The position numbers were made by a program, and so were the translations under genes. Positions 1 through 54,603 of a stretch of 64,000 nucleotides of DNA are shown here, piece by piece (position 1 is the first letter of the stretch; each line of letters starts with the position of its first letter). This DNA comes from Candidatus Vecturithrix granuli (GTDB taxonomy: Bacteria > Moduliflexota > Moduliflexia > Moduliflexales > Moduliflexaceae), in NCBI GenBank assembly GCA_000739535.1, contig DF820470.1, forward strand, positions 14,582 to 78,581, given 5' to 3'. Below the pieces are notes generated by a model that saw only the letters and a list, made by a program, of their open reading frames with translations, made no database searches and was not told the DNA's origin.

Positions 1-71
<71 letters not shown>

Positions 72-22555: not shown

Positions 22556-24595
22556 ATGGAAAAAGCTAAACTCATCATCAAAACAACTAAAAAAGGGAAA
22601 CATATCGCGGAACTGCTCTTTCTCGATACCAATAAAACCATGCCGTTTCCGCAATTTACCCCGCAAAATGCTTCTATGAACGGACAGGAAGTTGAGGTTC
22701 AACGGGAACAGGGGAAGATTTCAAAGGTTCAAACTGAAGGGAAGGTGATTTATGCAATGACAGTTTCGCCTCCGTCTCCATCTCGCAGGCCTCCCAGCGA
22801 TGACCGCCGACCTTCCTTTTCGGCTCCGCGCCGGACAGATGCACCGCGAACATCACGCTATCAGACTGCCAGGCCGGGCCAGCAGATCAGCAACGTCCGT
22901 TCTCCTGCCCACGCGCCCTATAATTTCATTCCGCTCAATGAAAAAATCATTGCAGCCGAAAAAATTCCAGGACAGGATTTTCCTTTGAATGTGTATCATC
23001 AAACCCGGCATACGGGATGGATTGACCTTGAGATTGAGACTCAAACCCCATTGTATATCCGCGACGCCTTAACGATGGAAGAGAGCAATTCCGACAGGGT
23101 GAATCCCGATTTCTTTTCGCCTAACGGTCAGCCGCAAATTCCAGGCAGTTCGCTGCGCGGCATGGTTCGCATGCTGGTAGAAATCGTCAGTTTCGGCAAA
23201 TTCGGCGCAGCGGATCGAGAGAAACGCTTCTATTTCCGAGGATTGGCAGATAAGAGCAATCTGCGCCAGGACTATCAGGAACGCATGAGTTCTTTCGACC
23301 GCAAAAGCCGCCGGGCCATTTACAAAATGTCCGCCGGAGTCCTTCGCAAAAAGGGACGATTTGATTATGAAATCGTACCGTCAGAGAAATTCTGGCAAAT
23401 CGCCAAGCCAAAAGCGCAAGGCATTGTCAAACAACTCAAGGATCAACGCTACGGAGAATTTAAGTTCTATGAAACCGGCGAGGGCTATTTAGTGGTCTCA
23501 GGCAACATGCAAAACAAGAAAAAAGACTGGATGATTGCGTTCCCATCGTCTGGCGCCAAAGCGTTTCCGATCCACGAAGATGATATAAAAGACTACAAAG
23601 ATGACGCCACGCGCGCGGATACGGTTCCGAATCTGGTCGAACTTGCCAATCGGAAACAATACAGCAAAGGCGTGCCCTGCTTTTACGTCAAATGGCAGGA
23701 TCGTTTCGGCCGCTCGCGCGTATCCTTCGGCCATACGGCCATGTTCCGTTTAGCGTATGAGAGAACGGTTGGCGAGCATCTTCCGGATGCGCATAACGAT
23801 GATGCCGCAATAGATATTGCCGAAGCGATATTCGGCAATGAGAAGACCTTTGCCGGACGCGTCTTCTTCGAGGACGCCAGACTGAATTTCGAGCAAACAG
23901 ACGTGCTGATGGGAGAAGCAACCCCCAAAATCCTCTCGTCTCCGAAACCCACAACGTTTCAGCACTATCTGACGCAACACCGCGATGACATCCGCCAATT
24001 GAGCCATTATAACACCAACGCCCTGATCCGAGGCAACAAACTCTACTGGCACAAATCCGGCGATAACTGGCAGGAGACTGACGAGGCCGCTATCACGCAA
24101 CACCAAACTCAATATACCAAAATTAATCCGGTCAAGCCACAGACCAAATTTACCGGACGCATCCGCTTCGAAAATCTTTCCGATGTTGAACTTGGTGCGT
24201 TGCTGTTCAGCCTCGATCTTCCGGAAGGCTGTTGTCATAAACTTGGTATGGGCAAACCGTTGGGTTTAGGCTCGGTCAAAATCATCCCTAAACTCTTTCT
24301 TTCAGATCGCAAACAGCGCTATTCCGATTTCCTGGCGGAATTCGACCTTCAGGAATCTCAACAACAGATTCCCAAATTCAAACAAAAATTCGAACTCCAC
24401 ATTTGCGAAGCGTTAAGAGAACAGAACGTTCATACCTTGTGGGATGTGAAACGGCTCAAAGAACTCAGAACCATGCTTGATTTTGAGAAAGGCGTCGAAC
24501 TTGAGAAGCAGGAGAAAATTCGATATATGCAGATCACTCCTCAAAATGAGTTCAAAGATCGTCCGGTGCTGCCGATGCCGACAATAATGGTTTAG
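22556..24595 (+). CDS. Long Cas7-like RAMP protein (Cas7 with insertion)
   Basis: This 679-aa protein has an N-terminal small beta domain (~1-70: AKLIIKTTKKGKHIAELLFL; SMNGQEVEVQREQGKISKV), a disordered Pro/Arg linker (~75-115), then a RAMP domain with GWIDLEIETQTPLYIRDALT, QIPGSSLRGMVRMLVEIVSF and a distal glycine loop LGMGKPLGLGSVKI near 562. A long insert lies between. This architecture matches the Cas7-insertion subunit of III-Dv. With csx10 and Cas7-2x it gives four Cas7 units in total. The start is uncertain because the repeat block abuts it; ATG 22556 is the first in frame. Confidence 0.86.
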   Translation: MEKAKLIIKTTKKGKHIAELLFLDTNKTMPFPQFTPQNASMNGQEVEVQREQGKISKVQTEGKVIYAMTVSPPSPSRRPPSDDRRPSFSAPRRTDAPRTSRYQTARPGQQISNVRSPAHAPYNFIPLNEKIIAAEKIPGQDFPLNVYHQTRHTGWIDLEIETQTPLYIRDALTMEESNSDRVNPDFFSPNGQPQIPGSSLRGMVRMLVEIVSFGKFGAADREKRFYFRGLADKSNLRQDYQERMSSFDRKSRRAIYKMSAGVLRKKGRFDYEIVPSEKFWQIAKPKAQGIVKQLKDQRYGEFKFYETGEGYLVVSGNMQNKKKDWMIAFPSSGAKAFPIHEDDIKDYKDDATRADTVPNLVELANRKQYSKGVPCFYVKWQDRFGRSRVSFGHTAMFRLAYERTVGEHLPDAHNDDAAIDIAEAIFGNEKTFAGRVFFEDARLNFEQTDVLMGEATPKILSSPKPTTFQHYLTQHRDDIRQLSHYNTNALIRGNKLYWHKSGDNWQETDEAAITQHQTQYTKINPVKPQTKFTGRIRFENLSDVELGALLFSLDLPEGCCHKLGMGKPLGLGSVKIIPKLFLSDRKQRYSDFLAEFDLQESQQQIPKFKQKFELHICEALREQNVHTLWDVKRLKELRTMLDFEKGVELEKQEKIRYMQITPQNEFKDRPVLPMPTIMV

Positions 24596-25587: not shown

Positions 25588-25860
25588 CAAAGAGACAACA
25601 GCGGATGAGAGGAATGAACGGATGAAGAAAGGCAACAACGGATTACGGGAATAAACTGAGGAAGACGGACACACCAGATAAAATCATCCGAGGATTCCCA
25701 AAATCCGCTGTTGTCTCCTGGAATGAGCAACAACAGCGGATAAGAGGAATGAACGGATGAAGAAAGACAACAGCGGATTACGGGAATAAACTGAGGAAGA
25801 CGGACACACCGGATGAAATCATCCGAGGATTCATAGAATCCGCTGTTGTCTCCTGAACGG
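25588..25860. repeat. Two tandem GACAACAGCGGAT hairpin repeats downstream of GxxExxY
   Basis: Two copies, about 145 bp each, run from GACAACAGCGGATGAGAGGA through GGAATAAACTGAGGAAGACG and CACCGGATGAAATCATCCGA to AATCCGCTGTTGTCTCCTG. Each folds on itself because ends are complementary. The copies differ at few positions. Confidence 0.9.
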
Positions 25861-26635: not shown

Positions 26636-26697
26636 CCGGATTGGAAGAAACGCAGGCTGAAATTATCCGAGGATTCCCAGAATCCGCTGTTGTCCCT
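26636..26697. repeat. Partial GGAT...ATCCGCTGTTGTC repeat
   Basis: This is a lone, shortened member of the GxxExxY-associated family: CACCGGATTGG, then TTATCCGAGGATTCCCAGAA and TCCGCTGTTGTCCC. The 5' half is missing. Confidence 0.8.
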
Positions 26698-26757
26698 CTT
26701 TCTCCGAAGATCGCGGGACTCCACGGTGGTCATCTCAAAAGGGGTGTGCCCTGCCTC

Positions 26758-26871
26758 CTGGCGATCAATCGCCAGTCTCAAAGCGAAAGGACGCTGAAGC
26801 GCCCTGCGAACTTGATCAGCGGGCTTGAGCCTGCTTCAGCTTTGAGACCGGCCATTTATGGCTGGGCGAAC
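26758..26871 (+). repeat. 114-nt coding palindrome, copy A (at broken cas1 edge)
   Basis: It begins CTGGCGATCAATCGCCAGTC and ends GCCATTTATGGCTGGGCGAA C. Internal arms pair (CAAAGCGAAAGGACGCTGAA against TTCAGC...TTTGAG). It is the same length (114 nt) as copy B at 52,886-52,999, with about ten visible base differences. In the cas1 frame it reads GDQSPVSKRKDAEAPCELDQ, then RA, a TGA stop, then ACFSFETGHLWLGE. Copy B has the same frame but TCA at the stop position. Confidence 0.92.
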
Positions 26872-27533
26872 TTGTCCGCAAAGCCCGCAAGAAAGAGCAG
26901 CCGACACTGAAAAAGGCGATTGACCGCATCAAAGCGGCCGAACGCAGCGCCAAAGCGGCGACCACGCTCGATACGGTGCGCGGTCATGAAGGCGAAGGCT
27001 TGGCTGCCTATTTTTCCGTGTTGAACGAACTCCTGACATCCTCCGGAAAAACACAGGATGGCTTTACCTTTGAAAAACGGGTGCGCCGTCCGCCTAAAGA
27101 CCCGATTAACGCCCTGCTCAGTTTCGGTTATACCTTGCTGACTAACGACCTGATGACGGCTGTCAATATTGTCGGGTTCGATCCCTACATCGGCTATCTG
27201 CACGCGGAAAAATACGGACGCCCTGCGTTAGCTCTGGATTTGATGGAAGAATTCCGGCCCCTGATTGTTGACGCCATGGTGCTGGCCTGCGTGAATAAGA
27301 GAATCCTGACCAGGGCACACTTCATCGCCACCGAAGCCGAAACGTACCGGCTGACCGACGATGGCCGGCGTATTTTTCTGGAACAATATGAAGTGCGCCG
27401 CAAAACCGAATTTACCCATGCCCATCTGAATTGTAAAATCACGTATCAGCGCGCCTTCGAGGAACAGGCGCGCGTGTTAGGAAGAGTGCTGCAAGGCGAA
27501 TTGCCTGAATATTTGCCGGTTTTGATGAAGTAG
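26872..27533 (+). pseudogene. cas1: Cas1, N-terminally truncated
   Basis: The frame continuing from the palindrome encodes the C-terminal helical domain of Cas1. It has TLDTVRGHEGEGLAAYFSVL (metal-binding Glu), PINALLSFGYTLLTNDLMTA, GFDPYIGYLHAEKYGRPALA (His) and LDLMEEFRPLIVDAM (acidic ligand). All three integrase ligands are present, but the N-terminal beta-domain (roughly the first 120 residues of a ~330-aa protein) is absent and is replaced by the dispersed element with an in-frame TGA. The first internal start is GTG/ATG near 26976, which would give 185 aa. This cannot build the normal Cas1 dimer, so I call it inactive. A reverse-transcriptase fusion upstream cannot be excluded as its original form. 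Confidence 0.88.
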
Positions 27534-27881: not shown

Positions 27882-28274
27882 ATGTACATCGTCATCTCCT
27901 TTGAAAATGTAGCGCGAAACTCTAGTTTCGCGCATTGTTGACAGCCGCGAAACTGGAGTTTCGCGCTACATCTCATTTTCATGATGACGGGTGAGCCGGA
28001 GGCTCATGATAGCTCCTATGATATTAAGAACGACCAGCGCCGCACCAAAATTCACGATTTGCTCAAGAATTACGGTGAACGCATTCAATACAGCGTGTTC
28101 GAATGCGAGCTGAACCGTAAAGAGTACCAGCAATTGCGCGACGCCTTAGACCCATTGATTGATGTGGAAGAGACCGACAGCGTCCGCTTTTATCGTTTGT
28201 GCCGGGAATGCCGGAGCAAGCTCGAACACGTGGGCGGACGCAGCGCCAGAGACAACACGGCGATTATCATTTAA
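27882..28274 (+). pseudogene. cas2: Cas2 interrupted by a palindromic insertion
   Basis: ATG at 27882 begins MYIVIS, the first strand of Cas2. The frame resumes at 28,014 with SYDIKNDQRRTKIHDLLKNY, then GERIQYSVFECELNRKEYQQ and SVRFYRLCRECRSKLEHVGG, a complete Cas2 body including the catalytic Asp region. Between them lie 117 bp (39 codons) with an in-frame TGA after SFAHC. CTCCT flanks the insert on both sides (27,896-27,900 and 28,013-28,017), suggesting a 5-bp target duplication. Re-initiation at ATG 27981 would replace the first beta strand with foreign sequence, so function is doubtful. Confidence 0.88.
27901..28017. mobile_element. Composite palindromic element inserted in cas2 (copy 2)
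   Basis: It contains the double palindrome (27,907-27,971: GCGCGAAACTCTAGTTTCGC and CCGCGAAACTGGAGTTTCGC) in the opposite orientation to the other copies. It continues with TCATTTTCATGATGACGGGT and GAGCCGGAGGCTCATGATAG. The latter part is the reverse complement of sequence that precedes copy 4 at 54,503-54,538, so the moving unit is the double palindrome plus this third hairpin. Flanking CTCCT repeats support recent insertion. Confidence 0.8.
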
Positions 28275-50691: not shown

Positions 50692-53600
50692 ATGCCTACG
50701 GTAACGGTGCTGTACGGAACAGCCTATGATGGGAAAAACCGGGAACTTTTCACCAAATGTCTGGAAAAAATCCGATGCCATGAAGGGGACGCCTGCCTGT
50801 ATTTGGTGCGGACCGATGTGCGCGTCCGTCAGTTGCGAGATTTCACGCTGCAACACCTGCCTGGATGGTTTCACTTTCCGATTTACACTTTTCCTGACTT
50901 CATTAAAATTCTTTATCAACGTTCATCTCACTCGCAACGCATTCTGACTGAGTTGGAGCAAAAAATCCTACTGGAAAGGCTACTGATCTATCGGGAAGAG
51001 CAACTCGGGGATCAATTTTATTTTCGGCAATTTCACGAACATCCCGGGATTGTCGGAAAATTGCAAGATTTTCTGAATGGGATTCGCCGCGTTGGCCTGG
51101 CTTCGCCGCAAGATTTGGAAACGGCTCTGAAACGGATTACAACGCAAGAGCGGGGATTTTTTACTGAATTGATTGAGCTATTGACGCGCTACTGTGCAGA
51201 ATTAGCTCAAAATGCGTTAAGCGATGAATCCGGGATTTTTCTTGAAATGGCGCGGCGCGCGGTTGCAGGCGAGTTAAACCTTCACCCTCTGATCAGGTCT
51301 CCGGAATTGCTGGTTCTGGAAGGATATTATGAGCTGACCATGCCGGAGCAGCAGATTTTGACAGCGTTGTGTGCGCAGTTTGAACAAACGTTTCTGACCC
51401 TGGACCTTCCAATGAACCCTTATAATATGCCGGAAGACCCCGCACTTCCCCGGGCGTTCCATCTCATGCGTGAATTTGTGCAGTTTCTCAAACAATCCGG
51501 TTTCTCGGTGCGCGAATATGCTGCTCCTCTTGAACAAAGCTCTGAACAGGTTTACATTGAGAGATCTGCCAGATTCGTTCATTTTTTCTCTTTACCGCCC
51601 GAGAAAATCTCTGTTCCATCGCAGCACATTTCCGTGCAGTCTTATCAAACCAGAAAACATGAGGTGCTTGAGATTGCCAGAGAGATCAAAAGGCTGCGCC
51701 AGTCTGGGGAAGTCTGCGAATTTCGTGAGATTGGTGTGGCGTTTCCTCTTATCGAAACATATATGCAACTCATCCGTGAAATCTTTCCACTCTTTGATAT
51801 TTCCTTTACCATGTTTCAGGGCTATTCGCTGGCATCCGCGCCTCTTGTGGTGACAGTGTTTAACCTGTTCAATATTGTTCTGGAAGACTATAGCCGCGCA
51901 GCGATTGCTCGATTCTTTGCTTCGCCCCTTGTTGCCTTTAAACCGATACATGCGAATGCGACTTCCGGCGCAGATTTGCCGGCGCTTGCGTTACATGCCG
52001 AGACCTATCCGCAGCTCGATTCGCTCGCCCTTCAGTTAGGCATTCTCAACGAAAAAGCGGAATGGGAGCAAAAATTGAGAGCATATCAAACAACGCTTGA
52101 AGCATCCGGAGCAAACCAGCCATTGCCGCCGGTTTGTTCTCTGCTTCCGGCAACCTTTGATTTTTTGGAATTTTTAGCGCAATTTGAGCAAAATGATCCG
52201 GCAGGACCCGATAGATGGTTCACTTTGCTTGAACAGAGCATCAATCGTTTTCAGATGCTCTCAGCGTTTTTGAAGGAAGAACAGCAAGCGATCCGCGAAC
52301 GTGATTCAGCCGCATTACGCGCTTTTCTCAAGCTTCTCCAGACATTACGTCAGCAATATGCTTCCTCCTCTCTGCATTGGACATTTAGAAAGTTTGTCGA
52401 AACCTTGCGTCTCGCGGTTCAGGGAGAAAGCTATTATCTGCCGGAAATCCTGGAAGACTCCGTTTTTGTGATGGGACGCCTCGATACGCGTCAGGTAGAA
52501 TTCCGCTACCTGTTTTTTGGCGGATTGGTGGAAAAAGATTTTCCCGGTCAGGGAGAACCCAATATCTTCCTGTCAGATCAGGAAACTGAAGTCCTCGGCT
52601 TAGCTACCTATAAAAAAGCCTTTGAGGAAGCGGCCTATCTCTTTTATTTAAATGTGATGAACCCTGCTGAACACTTGTATCTTTCCTATCCGCTTCAGGA
52701 AAACGACAAAGATCTGTTACGTTCAATGTATATCGAACAGATAGAAAAAACCCTGGCTGTTCAATCGCAAGCAGTGATTGAAGAAAATCCGCTGCAACAG
52801 TTGCAGCGTCTTTACACCTCAAGCGAGGTTTTACAATGGATCGGAGCGCAGCTTTTTCAGCAACACGGACATTTGAACGAGTTCTCTGGCGATCAATCGC
52901 CAGTCTCAAAGCGAAAGAACGCTGAAGCGTCCTCCGGAATTCAACAGCGGGCTTCAGCCTGCTTCAGCGTTGAGACCGGCCATTTATGGCTGGGCGAACG
53001 AGGCGTCAGCACCCAATACCTCCCCTTGTCCGACCAAATCCAGGGAGATGCTTCAATGGTATCGAACATAACCCACGCGCTCAGATTTCTGCGACAGACG
53101 CAAGGTGAGGACTATGTGCAGCATTTCCTTTCTGGCTTACGAGCGCAAGCTCTGCGCATAAGCGATGACCTGACCGAATTTGACGGAATGCTGCGCTCAG
53201 ATTACATGAAGCAGCAACTGCGCTTCTGGTATAAACGCTATGTCTATGCGGTTTCTGAATTTGATCTCTATTTTCACTGCCCGATGAAATATTTTTTCCA
53301 GCGACTGTTGTGCCTGATTCCGCCGCCGCAGATCGTGCGCGAACTGTTCGCTTCTGATGTCGGCTTGTTACTGCACAGAATTGTCGCGCGCTTTTATGCC
53401 GGTATGGCCAATGAATCTGCAGGAAAAGCTGATCTTGCCTTTCTTCAGCGGAAAGCCGATAAAACCAAATGGATAGACGAGGCGCAAGCGCGGATGGCTG
53501 AGATCGCCAGAGAAGAGCTTGCTGCATACGAGTTTTCCGGAACCTTCTGGGAATCTTTTACCCATGTTTTACTCGCAGGCCTCTCTTCCGATTCAAATCA

Positions 53601-54351
53601 GCAAGGAATCCTGGCAAAATTTATTCAATTGGAAGCGCAAGATCCCGACAAAGCTACTCCTTGTTACCTGGAAGCCCATTTTGGGATGTCCGCTGTTGCC
53701 AATCCGACACAAAATGCTGTCGAGGCTTCCGAGTTTTGCGGATATACGCTTTCTGATGCGCCGTTCTCTCTGAAAGCACAAAATCGTGATGGTCATGAGC
53801 ACACAATTCGAGTCAGAGGGAAAATTGACCGGATCGATGTGGCGTTTCCGTCGTCTGCCAACCAGGCAGGGCAAGCGAACGTCGTAATTTACGACTATAA
53901 AACTGGCAGCCTGCCTTCGGGGCAAAAACTGAAAGAAGGACGATTTCTGCAACTGCCCATCTACATTCTGGCGGCACAGGAATTGTTGGGCGAAGCCTAT
54001 AACGTTATTGCCGGCGGCTATTATCAGCTTCAATCTCCCCAGGAGATCGGCAAAAAACATCTGCTGGGCAGTAAAGAGTATGCAGATCAACAGTATTTTA
54101 AAGAGATGAGAACCGTCTTTTCAACGACCGAAGAATACCTGGCCTGGTTAACCCTGTCAGCCCGCCGGGCGATTTGCATAGACCAGGATCTGCGCCAGGG
54201 ATATTTTCACCCGACGACATTCGGAGAAACTGAAGCTGGCTGCCGCTATTGCGATTATCAACAAATTTGTCGTGTGGATCATCAGCGCATGAGTAAATTT
54301 CAGGCCTCAGAACCTGACATGACATACGAAAATCTTGACACAATCCCATAA
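50692..54351 (+). CDS. AddB-like exonuclease subunit with Fe-S nuclease domain
   Basis: This 1219-aa protein resembles AddB/RexB. The N-terminal helicase-like region has a degenerate Walker A (YGTAYDGKNRE instead of GxxGxGKT), so ATP hydrolysis is doubtful. The C-terminal RecB-type nuclease has GKIDRIDVAF (~1045) and VVIYDYKTGSLPSGQ (~1066), and four cysteines able to hold a 4Fe-4S cluster: HCPMKYFF near 861, then GCRYCDYQQICR near 1183-1192. Such proteins process double-strand DNA ends with AddA. addA is not adjacent. Residues ~733-770 are encoded by a 114-nt dispersed palindrome (copy B) inserted in frame. The start follows GGGAGGAACGCTC. Confidence 0.85.
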   Translation: MPTVTVLYGTAYDGKNRELFTKCLEKIRCHEGDACLYLVRTDVRVRQLRDFTLQHLPGWFHFPIYTFPDFIKILYQRSSHSQRILTELEQKILLERLLIYREEQLGDQFYFRQFHEHPGIVGKLQDFLNGIRRVGLASPQDLETALKRITTQERGFFTELIELLTRYCAELAQNALSDESGIFLEMARRAVAGELNLHPLIRSPELLVLEGYYELTMPEQQILTALCAQFEQTFLTLDLPMNPYNMPEDPALPRAFHLMREFVQFLKQSGFSVREYAAPLEQSSEQVYIERSARFVHFFSLPPEKISVPSQHISVQSYQTRKHEVLEIAREIKRLRQSGEVCEFREIGVAFPLIETYMQLIREIFPLFDISFTMFQGYSLASAPLVVTVFNLFNIVLEDYSRAAIARFFASPLVAFKPIHANATSGADLPALALHAETYPQLDSLALQLGILNEKAEWEQKLRAYQTTLEASGANQPLPPVCSLLPATFDFLEFLAQFEQNDPAGPDRWFTLLEQSINRFQMLSAFLKEEQQAIRERDSAALRAFLKLLQTLRQQYASSSLHWTFRKFVETLRLAVQGESYYLPEILEDSVFVMGRLDTRQVEFRYLFFGGLVEKDFPGQGEPNIFLSDQETEVLGLATYKKAFEEAAYLFYLNVMNPAEHLYLSYPLQENDKDLLRSMYIEQIEKTLAVQSQAVIEENPLQQLQRLYTSSEVLQWIGAQLFQQHGHLNEFSGDQSPVSKRKNAEASSGIQQRASACFSVETGHLWLGERGVSTQYLPLSDQIQGDASMVSNITHALRFLRQTQGEDYVQHFLSGLRAQALRISDDLTEFDGMLRSDYMKQQLRFWYKRYVYAVSEFDLYFHCPMKYFFQRLLCLIPPPQIVRELFASDVGLLLHRIVARFYAGMANESAGKADLAFLQRKADKTKWIDEAQARMAEIAREELAAYEFSGTFWESFTHVLLAGLSSDSNQQGILAKFIQLEAQDPDKATPCYLEAHFGMSAVANPTQNAVEASEFCGYTLSDAPFSLKAQNRDGHEHTIRVRGKIDRIDVAFPSSANQAGQANVVIYDYKTGSLPSGQKLKEGRFLQLPIYILAAQELLGEAYNVIAGGYYQLQSPQEIGKKHLLGSKEYADQQYFKEMRTVFSTTEEYLAWLTLSARRAICIDQDLRQGYFHPTTFGETEAGCRYCDYQQICRVDHQRMSKFQASEPDMTYENLDTIP
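52886..52999 (+). repeat. 114-nt coding palindrome, copy B (inside addB-like gene)
   Basis: It begins CTGGCGATCAATCGCCAGTC and ends ATTTATGGCTGGGCGAAC, like copy A at 26,758-26,871. It is read in frame as GDQSPVSKRKNAEASSGIQQ, then RASACFSVETGHLWLGE. The host protein continues normally on both sides (QHGHLNEFS before; RGVSTQYLPLS after). This is the pattern of a protein-tolerated insertion, like the palindromic coding elements of Rickettsia. Confidence 0.92.
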
Positions 54352-54420: not shown

Positions 54421-54603
54421 ATGTACCGCGAAACTCCAGTTTCGCGGCAGTAGCAATGGTGCGCGAAACTGGAATTTTGTGCTACATTTCCATAGGAGTT
54501 GTCATGAGCGTAGGCTCACCCGACGCAATGAAAATCAGATGTACCGCGAAACTCCAGTTTCGCGGCTGTCAACGATGCGCGAAACTGGAGTTTCGCGCTA
54601 CAT
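54421..54603 (+). repeat. Two double-palindrome repeats (copies 3 and 4) with linker hairpin
   Basis: Copy 3 (54,421-54,487, slightly decayed: GGAATTTTGTGCTACAT) and copy 4 (54,539-54,603) are in the same orientation. The linker between them (CATGAGCGTAGGCTCACCCG, then ACGCAATGAAAATCAG) is the counterpart of the third hairpin found in the cas2 insertion. Together they fill the gap between the addB-like gene and the aldo/keto reductase. Confidence 0.9.

Follow-up and report, generated by a model that had tools for sequence, protein, structure and literature searches.

A dispersed palindromic repeat, apparently specific to the lineage of Candidatus Vecturithrix granuli, with one in-frame copy in an addB-like gene

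The window analysed here, a stretch of 64,000 nucleotides from the draft genome of Candidatus Vecturithrix granuli (8.38 Mb in 21 contigs, 94% complete, 10.75% estimated contamination), carries two copies of a 114-nt element, 92% identical to each other and in the same orientation (Table 1). One is located within an uninterrupted addB-like gene and the other at the 5′ break of a truncated cas1 gene. With model R1, they score 135 and 138 bits, respectively, and each also gives a match of 88-90 bits on the other strand; no third significant copy is detected in the whole window. The element is strongly palindromic, with a fold z-score of -4.4 and no shuffled sequence folding equally well. A BLAST search of the whole genome with the addB copy returns at least 40 distinct places, including the cas1-side copy, and a covariance model built on 30 copies, followed by nhmmer over the fetched regions, finds at least 63 copies at the threshold of 35 bits. 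The element is thus a real dispersed palindromic family in this genome, as an earlier note on this DNA had supposed. An Rfam scan of the window gave only a partial bacterial 16S rRNA match at its edge (positions 1-67, minus strand) and no Rfam family for the element.

Table 1 Coordinates, in the window, of the two element copies, their parts and the genes that carry or adjoin them.
Feature	Position	Strand	Basis
Element copy at 5′ break of cas1 remnant	26758-26871; model R1 match 26752-26866	+	sequence search and model R1
5′-truncated cas1 remnant, PF01867 positions 118-282 of 283	26877-27533	+	ORF and profile match
addB-like gene, 1219 aa, uninterrupted; in-frame element at about aa 730-780	50692-54351	+	ORF and domain matches
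Element copy in addB	52886-52999 (earlier note's coordinates); model R1 match 52880-52994	+	sequence search and model R1
Hairpin H1, CTGGCGATCAATCGCCAG	52886-52903	+	fold and covariation
Closing stem, left strand, TCTCAAAGC	52904-52912	+	fold and covariation
Hairpin H2, GAACGCTGAAGCGTCC in addB copy; consensus GGACGCTGAAGCG[C/T]CC	52917-52932	+	covariation
Hairpin H3, GCGGGCTTCAGCCTGC	52947-52962	+	covariation
Closing stem, right strand, GCGTTGAGA in addB copy; consensus GCTTTGAGA	52967-52975	+	covariation
Hairpin H4, CCGGCCATTTATGGCTGG	52976-52993	+	covariation
Right arm of addB copy, 34/38 identical to long-form sequence	52993-53030	+	arm alignment
Right terminal inverted repeat of addB copy, CGGACAAGGGGAGGTAT, 2 mismatches to CTGACARGGGTAGGTAT	53016-53032 (G000:C14:67597-67613)	-	CTGACARGGGTAGGTAT scan

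The core of the unit is about 109 nt long and is made up of four hairpins and a closing stem, in the order H1, TCTCAAAGC, H2, spacer, H3, GCTTTGAGA, H4, with H2 reading GGACGCTGAAGCGTCC and H4 reading CCGGCCATTGATGGCTGG. Since H4 approximates the inverse of H1, and H3 that of H2, the element is an inverted doublet: two inverted half-units of two small hairpins each. In an alignment of 51 copies, the count of two-sided compensatory cells over the five helices is 43, whereas shuffling gives 10.2 and sliding the helix partners out of register gives 4-13; the strongest compensatory variation is that of H4. Template-switch correction can also maintain the symmetry of palindromic DNA, so that covariation alone is no proof of a function as RNA. 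Half-unit (singlet) copies are present in the genome. One copy (C14:241374, L176) lacks H2 and H3, its H1-TCTCAAA being fused straight to TTTGAGA-H4; another (C5:33776-34010, L179) is split by an unrelated palindrome, cgtttcggaaataa...ttatttccgaaa, and is a nested insertion of one hairpin repeat inside another.

The addB frame runs through the element without a stop (...GDQSPVSKRK...ETGHLWLGE...), so that about 50 element-derived codons are read in frame and the rest of the 1219-aa ORF is open. The protein matches PF12705 and PF21445, with an AddB N-terminal part and a PD-(D/E)XK nuclease; its nearest models are those of AddB, addB_Gpos TIGR02773 being matched with an E value of 1e-27, below the curated cut-off. 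The Pfam nuclease domain starts at aa 854, past the element-derived stretch. A genome of the same family, G001, encodes an AddB homologue with an open frame of 1207 aa, 45% identical on either side of a break at 722-800, and it lacks the element segment; this bears out the earlier proposal of an in-frame insertion into AddB. By comparison with this one close homologue, the stretch is a genuine insertion specific to the lineage. It sits in a poorly conserved linker before the nuclease domain and looks merely tolerated. No further AddB homologue was confirmed in a wider genome-contig collection, and a sequence search for a solved structure on which to place the insert gave none.

At the second site, the Cas1 homology starts at residue 17 of the ORF, at base 26877, which is the right edge of the element, and the stop-to-stop frame begins at 26829, inside the element. 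By the profile match, the element caps a cas1 remnant devoid of about the first 117 model positions. The remnant shares its frame with no more than the final ~14 codons of the element, and in the addB frame the copy reads LDQRA, a stop (TGA, within the element) and then ACFSFETGHLWLGE. Given that the two copies have the same orientation, this partial agreement of frame is a one-in-three coincidence. The earlier note had the same 114-nt element read in one orientation and one frame inside two genes: the two copies and their orientation stand, whereas the in-frame presence in two genes falls with the TGA and the truncation of cas1. Upstream of the remnant, a 679-aa ORF (window 22556-24595) has RAMP-superfamily matches (PF03787), which suggests a CRISPR-related locus. 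A different repeat, (c)aacagcggat...gaatccgctgttgtc, occurs in several copies between degraded genes (25590-25860 and 26650-26700), including directly upstream of the cas1-side element.

Genes were called by an in-house dicodon scorer in place of a standard gene finder; it was trained on 379 long ORFs, and its choice of start codons may move gene edges. By these calls, the addB copy is the only one of 63 inside an ORF. One copy lies near a contig end and has no flanking gene call on one side, and the other 61 lie between genes or overlap the edge of one, in co-directional (43), convergent (12) or divergent (6) settings. As a fraction of 0.776 of the sampled DNA is called coding, one internal copy in 63 has a binomial P of 2.6e-39. 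Random placement within the same gaps predicts 25.3 flank distances of at most 30 bp from a 3′ gene end, and 35 are observed (P 2e-4); the same test reveals no excess near 5′ gene ends. The orientation of the copies relative to the adjacent 3′ gene end shows no bias (19 same, 22 opposite); because the core is nearly palindromic, this argues only weakly against a strand-specific role as RNA. In one region (L112, C17:84677-98627), three copies occupy gaps between neighbouring genes in what looks like a sugar ABC-transporter operon (L112:4995-8951), with an IS200 just past it.

The flanks of several copies carry a left arm (CTGACAGGGGTAGGTATTTTACTCGTGCG...) and a right arm (GGCGGACGAGGCATCAGCACCAAATACCTACCCTTGTCAG), which extend the element to a long form of about 185 bp whose ends are inverted repeats of about 17 bp, CTGACARGGGTAGGTAT. 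A genome scan for CTGACARGGGTAGGTAT allowing up to two mismatches finds 29 sites, versus 1 for the reversed control. Both terminal repeats are present in six core copies and one arm in several others, while most copies have no terminal repeats at all. The addB copy is one of those with a single arm, the right one; its other flank gives no left-arm signal above that of shuffles (P 0.47). Direct near-repeats of 10-12 bp flank four of the six two-ended copies (TCCCGGCCTCTC/TCCCGGTCTCTC, CCTGGGAGGG twice, TCCTGAAAGG twice and TCCGCAAACGG/TCCGCAAGCGG), these flanks being themselves short repeated hairpins, for which one mismatched pairing of a left with a right flank scored 20 as well; a fifth copy has a weaker near-repeat (8/12). 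The same CTGACARGGGTAGGTAT ends also bound three unrelated interiors of 163-407 bp without the core (C7:5831-6237, C16:372875-373037 and C18:80944-81160), and they form a broader inverted-repeat family with varied contents. Several short copies have common edges of their own, GTCTC on the left and GGGAT on the right.

No copy was found in 39 relatives by DNA search, in three phylum mates with model R1, or in plasmids and phages by blastn. Pattern scans, which need near-exact halves, gave none in 84,980 GTDB species genomes or in viral contigs, the collections possibly omitting records very close to the source genome. As far as these searches reached, the family is apparently specific to the source lineage, which agrees with the earlier suggestion that it may be undescribed.

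Like REPINs and BIMEs (PMC3116915), the element forms inverted hairpin doublets with a clover-like or single-hairpin fold, dispersed outside genes in many copies and accompanied by singlets; unlike them, its halves have two hairpins each, no RAYT gene is nearby and no GTAG/CGTC tag was seen. Of the features of REPs and REPINs, the element thus shows extragenic dispersal and the inverted doublet with singlets; an end tag and a linked RAYT were looked for and not seen. With untagged REP-like palindromes and intragenic REPs (PMC3733652), the element shares restriction to a species, proximity to 3′ gene ends and occasional entry into genes, repair genes included; it differs from those families by its new sequence, its larger unit and the subset with terminal inverted repeats. 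The long form resembles bacterial non-autonomous MITEs (PMC10969869) in having inverted repeats of about 17 bp, no transposase gene and near-duplications of 10-12 bp at some copies. Unlike MITEs, most copies are without such ends, the same ends bound unrelated interiors, and no partner transposon was found. In architecture the element matches a REP doublet, with a likeness to both REPINs and MITEs and membership demonstrated in neither.

The explanation that we propose, with a probability of about 0.85, places the element among the non-autonomous dispersed palindromic repeats of the REP-doublet/BIME/MITE kind. Its copies, two inverted half-units joined by the TCTCAAAGC/GCTTTGAGA stem, lie almost only between genes, often shortly past a stop codon. 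At least the long form with CTGACARGGGTAGGTAT ends most likely moved as a miniature transposon, through an enzyme presumably acting in trans. The addB copy is a long-form copy bearing the right arm, inserted in the linker that separates the nuclease domain from the helicase-like part. The gene is uninterrupted, the insert having an open frame and a net length that leaves the frame unchanged, and the protein presumably tolerates it. The cas1-side copy lies at the break of a gene that lost its 5′ part. Against the proposal, the searches for a mobilising enzyme found none, and a single transposition mechanism does not cover all copies, since the addB copy is without the left arm and most copies are without terminal repeats.

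The earlier note had instead compared the element to the Rickettsia palindromic elements (RPEs), as a protein-coding palindromic family; such a family would be selected to stay open in one frame and would insert in genes. RPEs are often intragenic and in frame, where they encode a conserved peptide (PMC10969869, PMC3733652); the element resembles them as a palindrome of similar size found in frame in a gene, here once, at the clean addB insertion missing from the same-family homologue. Unlike in RPEs, however, all but one of the 63 copies lie outside gene interiors, and the family favours neither a frame nor a peptide: of 55 copies, 20, 1, 16, 5, 13 and 0 are open in the six frames, the addB frame being the one with 16. 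The cas1-side copy, for its part, contains a stop and sits at the edge of a truncated gene. Neither an appreciable in-frame intragenic share nor a consistently open frame is seen, and the mostly intergenic, random-frame distribution that the note itself had set against its reading is largely what the genome contains. As a description of the family, the RPE-like reading is already refuted, and we give it hardly any credence. About one in six frames is open per copy and one in three lengths keeps the frame, so about 1/18 of gene insertions are read through by chance, and to find one such case among some 60 retained copies is unremarkable. An improbable alternative is that the addB insert has acquired a function, or that repair genes are preferred sites. 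Many published intragenic REPs are in DNA synthesis or repair genes (recBCD, uvrA, DNA polymerase I and dnaE2), sometimes as the sole decorated gene of a species (PMC3733652), and addB, whose product is a nuclease subunit of recombination repair, is the only decorated gene found in this genome; against this, there is a single case here, and the insert is in a poorly conserved linker. A real bias, by which palindromic elements would preferentially enter end-processing and repair enzymes, or be tolerated in or modulate them, has likewise little probability.

Two other alternatives concern the mobilising enzyme. A REPIN proper, moved in trans by a RAYT (REP-associated tyrosine transposase), would fit the mainly extragenic inverted hairpin doublet and its singlet halves, and the genome encodes two RAYTs above the cut-off of the NCBIfam profile NF047646 and two weaker RAYT-like proteins. 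However, no element copy is found within 5 kb of these four genes, three of which are flanked by other palindrome families, such as hairpins after GGTAG or GGAG. Edges inspected by eye show no unpaired GTAG or CGTC tag at the core ends, the commonest forms being GTCTC on the left and GGGAT or GGGCG on the right. The best Y1 transposase match considered as a partner, 262 bp from a copy (C17:93627 to 93889), is an IS200 TnpA. We regard this alternative as rather unlikely. The window also contains palindromes of GTAG type, GTAGCGCGAAACTCCAGTTTCGCGC and its inverse (2348-2408, 27909-27969 and 54423-54601), with 11 matches at up to three mismatches where none is expected by chance; similar palindromes adjoin the RAYT-like gene at C13:26448 and may be its REPs. 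The other alternative, to which we give somewhat less than an even chance, is that of miniature inverted-repeat elements served by a DDE transposase generating duplications of 10-12 bp, with the short copies decayed or internally derived. The six two-ended copies, the near-repeats around four of them and, more weakly, a fifth, and the unrelated interiors within the same ends argue for it; the many copies without terminal repeats and the shared edges of several short copies argue against it. None of the ten DDE_Tnp_1 matches lies between a CTGACARGGGTAGGTAT pair, and the closest of them is some 3.6 kb away from one repeat. When an autonomous partner was sought by its terminal repeats and by DDE_Tnp_1 matches, no full-length element with the same ends was found, the core-free pairs examined measuring 163-407 bp.

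REPs within DNA-repair genes have already been published (PMC3733652). Read as a non-autonomous palindromic repeat, the element adds an undescribed, apparently lineage-specific REP-like or MITE-like family with clear structural covariation, and gives one clean case of such a repeat in frame within an uninterrupted DNA-repair gene. The apparent second case, cas1, is a gene remnant, so that the pattern is not that of a coding-palindrome family. The AddB insert adds one data point to the question of why REPs within genes occur in repair genes.
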